64,000 bases of DNA from Desertivirga xinjiangensis (lineage in GTDB: Bacteria; Bacteroidota; Bacteroidia; Sphingobacteriales; Sphingobacteriaceae): positions 496,001-560,000 of the forward strand of contig NZ_JAFMZP010000001.1 in the NCBI RefSeq assembly GCF_024436435.1, in the 5' to 3' direction. A program made the translations under genes and the position numbers. The notes beneath the pieces are model-generated. The model saw nothing but the letters and a program-made list of their open reading frames with translations. It had not been told where the DNA came from and made no database searches. Of this stretch, positions 16,318 through 20,813 are shown piece after piece (position 1 is the first letter of the stretch; each line of letters opens with the position of its first letter).

Positions 16318-17169
16318 CCTTCAGTTACGATATTTAATTGGTGATTCTCCATGCTGAAATTGAGGCATTATTTTTAACAGTCAAGCCAATAATACAAATT
16401 ACTTCCTAAAACCACAATTTACTTGTTTCCTGGGACACCTCAACAACAATCAAATAGGCGAGTCTGGACGACGAGGTGACTTGCCCTCCTACTTCCGTAA
16501 ATTGCGTGCAGTTTAATAATACGGGAAACTGTTCGCAAGGAGGGACAGCTACAGTATGAATTGCCCGTGGGACTTGCAGGCGAGAGATCGAAGTAATGAT
16601 AGCATTTAAGTCGCATAAAAACGGAAGCTTTTCGCAGAGCCAGTGTGTAGGAAGAGTGATTTGGAACAGAAGAAAGTCGGCGAAGCAGTAACGGAAGAAG
16701 TTAGAAATGAGCAGTCAATATTCTGCAATCCTATCAATCTGCCGGCAGGATTATTATTAGCTGCCAGCGTTTACGAAACCTGCTCACTCTGGATGCACAA
16801 CAAGTGGCGTTAGATGAACACTAGATCGGAAACCCTGGTCAACAAAAAGGACCGTCATCATGCCGTCCTGTGTTTAGGAACATGGATTAAGTAAGATTTT
16901 GAAGGTTATTCTAATTGTTTCCTGACTTTTTCCTAAATTTAATATCCAATGTAGGCGATCTCTCGCTTGTTGAATTTTTTTCTTATATGTAATCCCGTAT
17001 GCATTAAAATGTGTGATTTTCATCACAACTGTCTAAATGTTTTACACTTCTATCCATTAATTTGTTATATTTGATTTGTAAATATTCACAGTTATAATAT
17101 GTAACAGAATAGATATTTTTGCGAATCCTTCATAAAAACATTTGAAGCATTTCGCACTTTGAGTCTCGG
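16318..17169. other. Intergenic stretch without recognisable gene
   Basis: About 850 bases with no convincing open frame on either strand and no tRNA- or rRNA-like structure that I can see. The last ~150 bases are AT-rich and contain two matches to the Bacteroidota -7 element, TATATTTG (17066-17073) and TATTTTTG (17114-17121). Neither has a clear TTG at the right distance upstream. They could drive the structured element and the genes downstream. Confidence 0.4.
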
Positions 17170-17310
17170 CTTAGAAACGTAGGAAATTTCATGAGAACGA
17201 GAGTATAAGTGTAAGTGCTCACGCTATAAGCGTGGGCCTTGCTTATTCGTTCTCGGGCTTCCTACGGCCTCTAAGACGTAAGTAAGGTTCCATGCTTTTT
17301 GCGTTTCTAA
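17170..17310 (+). ncRNA. Nested-hairpin structured element, candidate leader RNA
   Basis: Several inverted repeats nest in order: CTTAG (17170-17174) with CTAAG (17271-17275), CGTAGGAA (17178-17185) with TTCCTACG (17259-17266), GAGAACGA (17193-17200) with TCGTTCTC (17247-17254), ATAAG (17205-17209) with CTTAT (17242-17246), and GCTCACGCT (17217-17225) with AGCGTGGGC (17229-17237, one G-T). Together they form one long arm of about 105 nt. A competing perfect 9-bp pair, TTAGAAACG (17171-17179) with CGTTTCTAA (17302-17310), would break the outermost stems. It ends 52 bases before the 89-residue gene. It may be a leader RNA or a small palindromic mobile element; no known class is recognised. Confidence 0.5.
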
Positions 17311-17362
17311 CGGTACCTATTTACCAGACTCCATTACATGAATACTCTTAATATAATTCATA

Positions 17363-17632
17363 ATGGATACTACCACAGAAAACCCCGATGAACCCATAAC
17401 GCTCATACAACTCATGGAGAATTTTTTCCATACCTATCCACCCGCTAAGGCAGAACGCTTGCTCTGGCACTGGTCTTTTCTGTGTGCTAAAAAAGATTTC
17501 AGTTCACTGTCTGAAGAAAAGATCCGGGAGTTTACAGACTTTTTTAGACAGATGGAGGAACTTGCATCAGCTGTTCAGAAGGTCCATAAAGACACAGGAG
17601 TACTAAAGAAAGATGAGCCAGTAAATAACTAA
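17363..17632 (+). CDS. Small hypothetical protein (89 aa)
   Basis: An 89-residue, mostly alpha-helical, charged protein without signal peptide or membrane segment. Hydrophobic and aromatic residues cluster at about 14-40 (L-M-E-N-F-F-H-T-Y, L-L-W-H-W-S-F-L), followed by an acidic amphipathic helix (about 45-75). I do not recognise the family. It lies 33 bases upstream of a membrane-anchored protein with which it is probably co-transcribed, and directly after the nested-hairpin element. Codon use and the spacing to its neighbour make it a credible gene. Confidence 0.6.
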   Translation: MDTTTENPDEPITLIQLMENFFHTYPPAKAERLLWHWSFLCAKKDFSSLSEEKIREFTDFFRQMEELASAVQKVHKDTGVLKKDEPVNN

Positions 17633-17665: not shown

Positions 17666-18538
17666 ATGTTCCGCAAACCAAACTCACCGTCTCCCGAAGC
17701 AGAGGCTTTTAAGAAGTTCCTGATCATTGAAGGGATTTTACTTTTACTCATGATGTTGCTTCTGCTATTCAATGCTTCTGCGGGAAGAAAGAAGAGAAGC
17801 GACAATTTGAACGAAACTACCCCGAACTACACTTCAAACCTCAAAAATTCATCTACTGAGGTGAGCTCAGTTATTGGCGGTTACCGTAAGGGCTACCCTT
17901 CAAAATGCGACACGCTACGGAATGATAGTACGGTCAGGTTTTTTGCTAGCAACATCGACCCCCTGGTTCTTTTTAAAAAGGCATTGAAGCTGCCGGAAAA
18001 CCAATGGCCCGATAGCCAAATAGTGTTAGAAGAGCTGGATGAACTTCGCTTCTTTTTTATTGATGGAGAAGAGGATCGTCCGCGAAAAAGCATTACTTAC
18101 GAGCTAGTCCTCCCAATCGAGCGAGAGAAAGAGTTAGCAAACTTTATGCTGCAAGATCTCTGCCGTTACTTTAATGTAAATGCAGCAATAAAAGAACAGG
18201 AAACGGACTGTTATTACCTGGTGCATGAGCCATCGGCAAGCGTTCCTTTAAGCAAAGGCGGTAAGGAAGAAAATAATTTTGAAGCAGGGGAGGGACAACG
18301 GCATTTTCTGAGGAACAGTGATATTTCAAGCCTGATCAGCTACTTAAATAACGTCCCGGGTATGCTGCCTGTTTTTGATTACACGGGAATCACCCAGAAA
18401 GTAGATCTTGAATTAGGAACTGACCCAGGTTCAGTATGTACACTGAATAGTGCCCTGAAACCTTATGGTATGGCCCTTAAGTTTTTCGTAAGAAGAATGA
18501 AGATGCTGGTGCTTTCTCCGGCTTCGCTGCCTGAATAA
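17666..18538 (+). CDS. Membrane-anchored protein with DUF3738-like C-terminus
   Basis: A 290-residue protein with one N-terminal membrane helix (about 18-38, I-I-E-G-I-L-L-L-L-M-M-L-L-L-L-F) and the remainder probably periplasmic. The last ~70 residues read S-S-L-I-S-Y-L-N-N, then P-V-F-D-Y-T-G-I-T, D-L-E-L, S-A-L-K-P-Y-G-M-A-L-K and M-L-V-L. That order matches the C-terminus of DUF3738/TIGR03435 proteins, of unknown function, often linked with BlaR1-like sensors. The match is from pattern memory and is inference. It follows the 89-residue gene with a 33-base gap, and no BlaR1-like gene is nearby. Confidence 0.65.
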   Translation: MFRKPNSPSPEAEAFKKFLIIEGILLLLMMLLLLFNASAGRKKRSDNLNETTPNYTSNLKNSSTEVSSVIGGYRKGYPSKCDTLRNDSTVRFFASNIDPLVLFKKALKLPENQWPDSQIVLEELDELRFFFIDGEEDRPRKSITYELVLPIEREKELANFMLQDLCRYFNVNAAIKEQETDCYYLVHEPSASVPLSKGGKEENNFEAGEGQRHFLRNSDISSLISYLNNVPGMLPVFDYTGITQKVDLELGTDPGSVCTLNSALKPYGMALKFFVRRMKMLVLSPASLPE

Positions 18539-19476: not shown

Positions 19477-19659
19477 TATAAGTTGTCTTTCAGCATTTCA
19501 GGCCGGACGCCCGCCCGGTATATTAACCCCAATTATTGCCGTTTCTCCATGTCTTTAAGCAGACACAATTGACCACTTCTGGTTCGCGTCTGACACGTCG
19601 CTTATTTCAACCATCATACTTCCCGGATACTTGATCGTTTTTTTAAAACTCCTGTTTGG

Positions 19660-19885
19660 CAAGGGTACCGGAAGCCTTTGGGAAAGGGCTGGGAAAGGTT
19701 ATGGTCAAGTATCGGAAGCGTTTGGGAAAAGTTGCCAAATCCTTCGGAAAAACATACCCTGGCTTCGGGAAGTGTTCGGGAAGGCTTCGGAAAAAAGCGA
19801 AGCCGCTTCGGAAAGTGTTCGGAAAACGTGGTAGAAACTGGCTTGTTTTCCGCAACCCATTGCCTGTTTGGGGATATGTCTTTGG
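19660..19885. repeat. Degenerate short repeats, core TTYGGRAA
   Basis: At least eight variants of TTTGGGAA, TTCGGGAA or TTCGGAAA occur within about 160 bases, spaced irregularly, with two weaker copies up to 19885. The tract leaves three plus-strand frames and one minus-strand frame open together, as expected for low-complexity DNA poor in stop codons. I therefore do not call a gene here. Confidence 0.65.
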
Positions 19886-19929
19886 GAATAGCAGTAAAAC
19901 TGCCTGAGGCGGTATGAAGAATAGGCAGA

Positions 19930-20092
19930 AAGTTTTACAACAGCGAAAACAGCGAAAATGATTAAAAACGACGAAAACAGCGAAAACGACGGAAATGATT
20001 AAAAACGCCAAAAACAGCGAATTCAGCGAAAAACGTCAAAAACAACTAAAAGTATCAAAAGCAGCGAAAACGCCGTTTTCAGCGAAGCCTCA
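19930..20092. repeat. Degenerate short repeats, core ACAGCGAAAA
   Basis: A run of variants of AGCGAAAA and of ACGACGAAAA/ACGGAAATGA units with a period of roughly 10-12 bases. It ends about 85 bases before the DUF6266 gene. No open frame of interest crosses it. The unit differs from the TTYGGRAA repeats just upstream. Confidence 0.65.
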
Positions 20093-20177: not shown

Positions 20178-20813
20178 ATGGGAATTATTAAAAAAGGAGC
20201 CAACGGCGGATTTTCCGGCAAAGCTGGCTCAATCATCGGAAGTAGTTGGAAAGACATCGACTACATCAAGGGTTTGCCTAAAAAGAGCAACAAACCGGCA
20301 ACCCAATCGCAACTAGAGCAGCAAGCCCGCTTTGCTTTAGCGGTTACTACCCTGCAACCCATCACTTCCTTGCTGAATGTAGGTTTTAAGGGACAAAAGA
20401 CGGGTAAAGCAACGGGTTACAACATGGCCTTACAGCATTTTCTGAGCAATGCGATCAAAGGCACTTACCCCGCTTATACAGTTGATTTTAGTAAGATGCT
20501 GATCAGCAAGGGAAATCTAATGAAATCGCCAAGTGCTGCCGTGGCTGCCGATGCTGGTGATTTGAAGATCTCCTGGTCGCCCTTAACCACGCTGTACGGT
20601 GCTTTTGCTGACGATGAGGCAACAGGGCTAATCTATAATCCGGCAAAGAACATCTATTTACCTGTCGGGGGTGCAACCAGGGCTGAGGCTGAATTGCTGG
20701 TAACTCTTCCTGCCGACTTTGACGGAGACACCTTGCATGTGTTTCTCTTCTTCACCAACCGGGATGGTTCAAAGCGTTCAGAGAGTGTTTATGCAGGTCA
20801 GATAGTGATCTGA
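20178..20813 (+). CDS. DUF6266 family protein
   Basis: A 211-residue protein that starts M-G-I-I-K-K-G-A-N-G-G-F-S-G-K-A-G and continues with G-S-S-W-K and a Q-L-E-Q-Q-A-R-F-A-L-A stretch, the pattern of the DUF6266 family found in Bacteroidota. The family's function is unknown to me. It has no signal peptide or membrane helix, and the C-terminal half looks like beta strands (T-L-H-V-F-L-F-F-T-N-R-D-G). It stands alone between the repeat tracts and a chimeric gene whose first residues resemble its own N-terminus. Confidence 0.8.
   Translation: MGIIKKGANGGFSGKAGSIIGSSWKDIDYIKGLPKKSNKPATQSQLEQQARFALAVTTLQPITSLLNVGFKGQKTGKATGYNMALQHFLSNAIKGTYPAYTVDFSKMLISKGNLMKSPSAAVAADAGDLKISWSPLTTLYGAFADDEATGLIYNPAKNIYLPVGGATRAEAELLVTLPADFDGDTLHVFLFFTNRDGSKRSESVYAGQIVI

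Follow-up and report, generated by a model that had tools for sequence, protein, structure and literature searches.

What is the long nested hairpin that precedes an 89-residue and a 290-residue protein gene in the window, a 64,000-nucleotide stretch of the Desertivirga xinjiangensis genome? The initial annotation described five stems nested in one arm of about 105 nt, proposed a switchable leader RNA serving the two genes, and named a palindromic mobile element as the alternative. The arm of about 105 nt is present (17170 to 17275, + strand), and we refer to this long, antiterminator-like nested hairpin as State A. RNAfold assigned positions 17150 to 17330 an energy of -64.6 kcal/mol, compared with -44.8 ± 4.0 kcal/mol for dinucleotide shuffles (z = -4.9; 0 of 200 shuffles as low). 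The arm resolves into seven helical segments rather than five stems, from the outermost (17170-17175/17270-17275) to the innermost (17217-17225/17229-17237). A perfect 9-bp pairing that had been taken for the competitor of the outer stems, between 17171 to 17179 (TTAGAAACG) and 17302 to 17310 (CGTTTCTAA), is likewise present but is not conserved. The window is the sole case among 98 relatives, most of the others having 3 to 6 bp between these places, and native pairs of the two sites are no better than between-species swaps (z = -1.5). This window-specific pairing was rejected as the switch; the relevant competitor is a second fold, State B, which the initial annotation did not list.

State B consists of two hairpins, a·b (17144 to 17220) and c·d (17228 to 17297), with a U-rich tract directly after the second. 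Positions 17144 to 17168 pair with 17197 to 17220, and 17228 to 17251 pair with 17275 to 17297. With columns taken from alignment A4, the segments on the + strand are as follows. Segment a (17144 to 17168), the 5′ arm of the first State B hairpin, pairs with b and is conserved in 98 of 98 elements. Segment x (17169 to 17196) is the left arm of the outer State A stems and carries the conserved internal loops GAAA and AUUUUU. Segment b (17197 to 17227) is the shared strand that pairs with a in State B or with c in State A, and segment c (17229 to 17248) pairs with b in the apical stem of State A or with d in the terminator-like stem of State B. Segment y (17249 to 17276) is the right arm of the outer State A stems and forms a small hairpin of its own in State B. 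Segment d (17277 to 17296) is the 3′ arm of the terminator-like hairpin, and the U-rich tract (17297 to 17306) lies directly 3′ of it. State A is thus b·c plus x·y, and the element, both folds included, is about 163 nt long.

Covariation of the two folds was scored on 82 elements (alignment A3). For State A, 97.2% of cells were paired and 25 of 30 pairs had double changes; the covariation score was 0.64, compared with 0.22 for shuffled and at most 0.09 for slid controls, the latter being 33 to 42% paired. State B was 91.7% paired, with double changes at 22 of 31 pairs and a score of 0.30 (0.19 shuffled, at most 0.09 slid), counts that rest on an alignment fitted to State A and are biased against State B, not for it. 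A scan of all column pairs recovered nested covarying columns between the 5′ flank and the left arm (6-72, 15-64, 22-56, and 23-55) and between the right arm and the 3′ flank (87-150, 95-141, and 96-140), along with the small y hairpin (113-122). Columns of b, c, and d also covaried as triples, from G-C-G to C-G-C (columns 79-87-150) and from C-G-C to U-A-U (78-88-149). Strands common to State A and State B make these triples change together, and both pairings survive the changes.

An alignment-free test, in which the segments were cut out and native duplex energies were compared with those of between-species swaps, avoids dependence on pair columns. Across 98 elements, native partners were strongly favored for a·b (z = -17.0; 98 of 98 better), c·d (z = -20.4; 96 of 98 better), b·c (z = -6.7), and x·y (z = -34.5). 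The control pairings a·c, b·d, and y·d were near 0, and a·d and x·b were weaker than swapped. For 24 representatives with <62% identity, the values were -8.8 (a·b), -12.3 (c·d), -6.5 (b·c), and -16.8 (x·y). G-U cells exceeded A-C cells about tenfold in both folds (State A, 211:22; State B, 308:34), and the + strand is therefore the folding strand; in principle, folded single-stranded DNA might show such a wobble bias too. Five unpaired bases in x and y are invariant (A32, A33, U43, U44, and C124, with A32/A33 at about 100% and U43/U44 at 97% conservation), while the surrounding stems change freely. In the lineage found in conjugative elements, c·d is weaker and d forms an extra hairpin with downstream sequence. 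On these comparative grounds, both folds of the element are maintained by selection.

By BLAST, the element recurs as a second copy in the genome of the window, and 19 of the 150 genomes searched, this one included, contain matches. Since the palindrome makes BLAST match either strand, the alignment of 22 copies (A2) was strand corrected; it contains 29 consensus pairs, 20 of them with compensatory changes. A covariance model (R1) built from these 22 relatives matched 178 of 301 genomes at the family level (at most seven copies each), 65 of 295 genomes of the class, across 40 of 156 genera, and 32 of 296 genomes of the phylum; these counts are lower bounds, obtained with stricter filters, and the model E values are rough. 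The element, whose compensatory stem changes the initial annotation had suggested looking for across Sphingobacteriaceae, occurs well beyond that family. A pattern scan of named organisms with a strict pattern returned Algibacter lectus only. No Rfam 15 family matched the element, whether in the window and at 8 loci with a relaxed E value or at 15 distant loci with the gathering threshold, and we found no description of the element in the literature. Judged from these comparisons, the element is an uncatalogued RNA present in many Bacteroidota. It may have been partially sighted before as HMP2_1032, a 106-bp palindromic Bacteroidetes candidate near TonB genes with predicted terminators, from a human-microbiome structured-RNA screen (PMC8040213). 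Compared by description only, the two are alike in size (about 106 bp), palindromic form, Bacteroidetes origin, and TonB genes, whereas that text describes no two-state structure (PMC8040213).

The position of the element is that of a leader. TAnnTTTG, the Bacteroidota -7 promoter box, precedes 81 of 98 elements (shuffles predict 8), most often at a distance of 18 to 25 nt. In the window, the box reads TATTTTTG (17114 to 17121, + strand), and the transcript probably starts a few nucleotides 3′ of it. A short 5′ dyad, P1 (GCGAATcCTTC...GAAGcATTtCGC; 17121 to 17154, + strand), overlaps both the beginning of segment a and the likely transcription start; its native duplexes were better than swapped ones (z = -7.7, 97 loci), and it is a candidate RNA hairpin or DNA operator. 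At the other end, the 10 nt after segment d contain a mean of 6.7 U (98 elements). By longest-ORF calls, 75 of 82 loci have a same-strand ORF no more than 700 nt downstream, and in 35 of them the distance is at most 60 nt; the mirror control, a minus-strand gene start within 60 nt on the other side, gave 0. In some loci, the start of SusC is about 220 nt 3′ of the element. The orientation of the element relative to the promoter box and the ORF is constant. Together with dual-state covariation and the strand asymmetry of wobble pairs, the promoter box, the U-rich tract, and the following gene give strong comparative support to the switchable leader RNA of the initial annotation.

In the window, the first gene after the leader (17363 to 17632, + strand) encodes a small helical protein of 89 residues with no Pfam family. 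By phmmer, it is homologous to ORFs of 81 to 93 aa in the same place at five loci of the SusC/SusD type (L146, L125, L132, L122, and L153). The second gene (17666 to 18538, + strand) encodes a 290-residue protein that shares homology with TlpA-like proteins of related loci over their C-terminal part (tblastn with the TlpA-like protein of L120, E = 7e-25). The window locus is therefore a variant of a SusC-type operon without SusC nearby. Of the two genes that the initial annotation assigned to the leader, the 89-residue gene has homologues that follow the element in several other loci; the gene called DUF3738-like matches TlpA-like proteins, and its weak DUF3738 match (Pfam E = 0.024) is below the cutoff. 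The small helical protein family lies directly after the leader in many loci (in the window and at L107, L148, and L100, for example), and profile comparison with proteins of 100 to 220 aa from other leader loci gave 86% probability. Farther downstream, a DUF6266 gene (20178 to 20813) is preceded by a repetitive, low-complexity "FGK/SGK" region (19631 to 20011) in which several frames of both strands are open.

On the upstream side, 49 loci have an opposite-strand ORF of 65 to 180 aa that starts 80 to 220 nt from the element, and the largest cluster of these proteins is of the Cro/C1-type HTH. SusC/SusD operons with the leader frequently have such a divergent small HTH gene. The corresponding region of the window (16318 to 17113), about 800 nt between a divergent LuxR-type gene and the leader, has no ORF of ≥60 aa, and tblastn found no remnant of a small HTH gene in it.

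Among 82 loci, SusC-like genes were found in 38, SusD-like genes in 33, TlpA-like thioredoxins in 18, and a 446-aa family in 13. Leaders in conjugative elements precede a single-domain response regulator (receiver domain confirmed) beside HTH genes or genes that we take to be TraO/TraQ-like. This regulator has 127 to 149 aa at L127, L131, L135, L077, and other loci, with an ORF of about 90 aa sometimes in between. HEPN proteins also follow the leader, as do, in distant families, restriction- or helicase-like proteins (read from sequence). At three loci (L084, 3001 to 3158; L095, 6001 to 6158; L145, 6001 to 6160), the leader precedes an ECF sigma factor and then a protein of a Cas12f cluster; the L084 protein matched PDB 9n9c, "Nuclease-deactivated Cas12f," with an E value of 1e-194, and the L095 and L145 proteins belong to the same cluster. 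Another distant family (L112 and L158) has a dihydrofolate-reductase-like gene of the RibD C-terminal type after the leader, and at L158 the same element that carries this gene also carries rteR. The second copy in the window genome (L003, 2198 to 2372, G000:C6) lies before a 186-aa secreted-looking protein on a contig with genes that are presumably RteC-like, and this copy is probably in a conjugative element. The expectation that the same genes would follow the element elsewhere held for the 89-residue homologues at several loci but not overall, the followers being functionally mixed.

By comparison, the element has two mutually exclusive conserved helices that share a strand and, as a sequence feature, a helix followed by a U-rich tract in the form of an intrinsic terminator. 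We favor, with a probability of roughly 0.6, a promoter-proximal two-state leader RNA that is most likely a transcription attenuator. We infer that State A is most likely the antiterminator and c·d the intrinsic terminator, and we infer likewise the act of termination, the direction of control, and the signal. In this model, a·b would pair first as the RNA emerges; c and y would then capture b and x to give State A, which would keep c from d and let the polymerase pass (ON). Were State A blocked or undone, c·d would form, and the hairpin and U-rich tract would terminate transcription (OFF). A factor or metabolite might set the balance of the two states, for which the invariant unpaired bases in x and y are a possible point of contact, and in many loci the divergent small HTH protein may control the promoter in addition. 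In the window, the leader would control the 89-aa and 290-aa genes.

Folding of growing chains of 98 elements gave a·b alone at the end of b and, by the end of y, State A in 100% of them. Once d and the U-rich tract were made, State B regained ground and was dominant in 24% of the elements, including that of the window. The window element alone had 19.4 expected pairs in a·b and 17.8 in c·d, and with more 3′ sequence State A returned; this flip indicates that its two states are nearly balanced. Constrained energies favored State B in 14 of 82 elements, with a median difference of 7.7 kcal/mol. State A is thus thermodynamically favored in most full-length elements, and formation of the c·d terminator may therefore be limited to particular conditions. 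Also counting against an attenuator are the weaker c·d of the conjugative-element lineage, the functional mixture of the genes, the loci with a SusC start about 220 nt away, and the 7 of 82 loci that have no same-strand ORF within 700 nt. The dominance of State A at equilibrium would also suit a two-state leader that works through mRNA stability, translation, or 5′ insulation instead of termination, as would the leader position, the stable 5′ hairpin, and an ORF often 20 to 60 nt downstream. We consider this reading unlikely, though the best of the alternatives: stability alone leaves unexplained why a conserved c·d abuts a U-rich tract, which is what a terminator requires, and sequestration is less natural in Bacteroidota, where Shine-Dalgarno sequences are rarely used.

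More doubtful is an independent small RNA that acts in trans and ends at the c·d terminator, with the downstream genes as neighbors rather than targets. The promoter and terminator-like end of the element, and the 7 of 82 loci with no same-strand ORF within 700 nt, are in keeping with such an RNA. However, the 35 loci with an ORF within 60 nt of the U-rich tract leave scant room for a second promoter, State A would abolish the terminator, which is pointless for a stand-alone RNA, and the stems change freely, unlike a seed that pairs with targets. Least probable is an element acting at the DNA level (a single-strand recombination or transfer site, a mobile palindrome, or an operator of the neighboring HTH protein), which would fit the occurrence in conjugative elements, on a mobilizable plasmid, and beside varied genes, the overlap of P1 with the promoter, and a wobble asymmetry compatible with a folded single DNA strand, but which is opposed by the constant orientation to promoter box and ORF, by the lack of any match in phage records or viral contigs, and by within-genome copies too diverged for recent transposition (53 to 67% identical among the four in the window genome; mostly 60 to 80% in other single genomes, with one pair at 88%). 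The mobile palindrome of the initial annotation is disfavored on the same grounds: contexts vary, but the element is always in a leader position, and the near-identical dispersed copies of a REP or MITE repeat were not found. The only plasmid match was Rhizosphaericola mali pB3-10, a mobilizable plasmid on which the leader copy (L157, 4971 to 5133) lies ahead of a 187-aa hypothetical protein. An integron attC site was likewise rejected, because the element is dispersed, 5′ of genes, and behind a promoter box, not 3′ of cassettes in arrays.

The proposed attenuator shares with terminator-antiterminator attenuators and riboswitch platforms the mutually exclusive helices, the U-rich tract, the downstream ORF, and a 5′ hairpin that competes with the antiterminator. 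It differs from them in having no known ligand, no visible leader peptide, unrelated genes, and no Rfam match, and in that covariation marks both states over about 163 nt. A leader-peptide attenuator was rejected, since among AUG starts inside the element no position was common to more than 37% of elements. A metabolite riboswitch would be expected to precede functionally coherent genes; SusC/SusD genes were found in 38 of 82 loci, and conjugative, HEPN, sigma/dCas12f, restriction-like, and DHFR-like genes were found as well. With genes this varied, a general signal or trans factor fits better than a metabolite switch dedicated to one pathway. LoaP/UpxY (NusG-paralogue) antitermination also acts through a structured leader ahead of accessory operons. 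The likeness would lie in that placement and in a trans factor that could explain mixed targets, but no NusG paralogue was noticed beside the element. The Bacteroidota noncoding RNAs rteR and Flavo-1 (Rfam) occur in some of the same neighborhoods (L158 and L172), where they match elsewhere in the locus and not at the element.

To our knowledge, apart from the riboswitch classes that are widely shared, Bacteroidota have few described cis-regulatory RNAs. We tentatively raise the possibility that the element is a phylum-wide attenuator class under one global signal or RNA-binding factor, which would gate nutrient-import operons, conjugative elements, restriction-like systems, and RNA-guided sigma-factor/dCas12f operons. 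The link between the leader and RNA-guided transcription systems (sigma/dCas12f) deserves separate attention. Evolution has recorded the competition between the two folds with unusual clarity in this element, which heads SusCD and sigma/dCas12f operons. The element is a widespread and testable candidate for a switch of the many SusC/SusD operons and the mobile elements of Bacteroidota.
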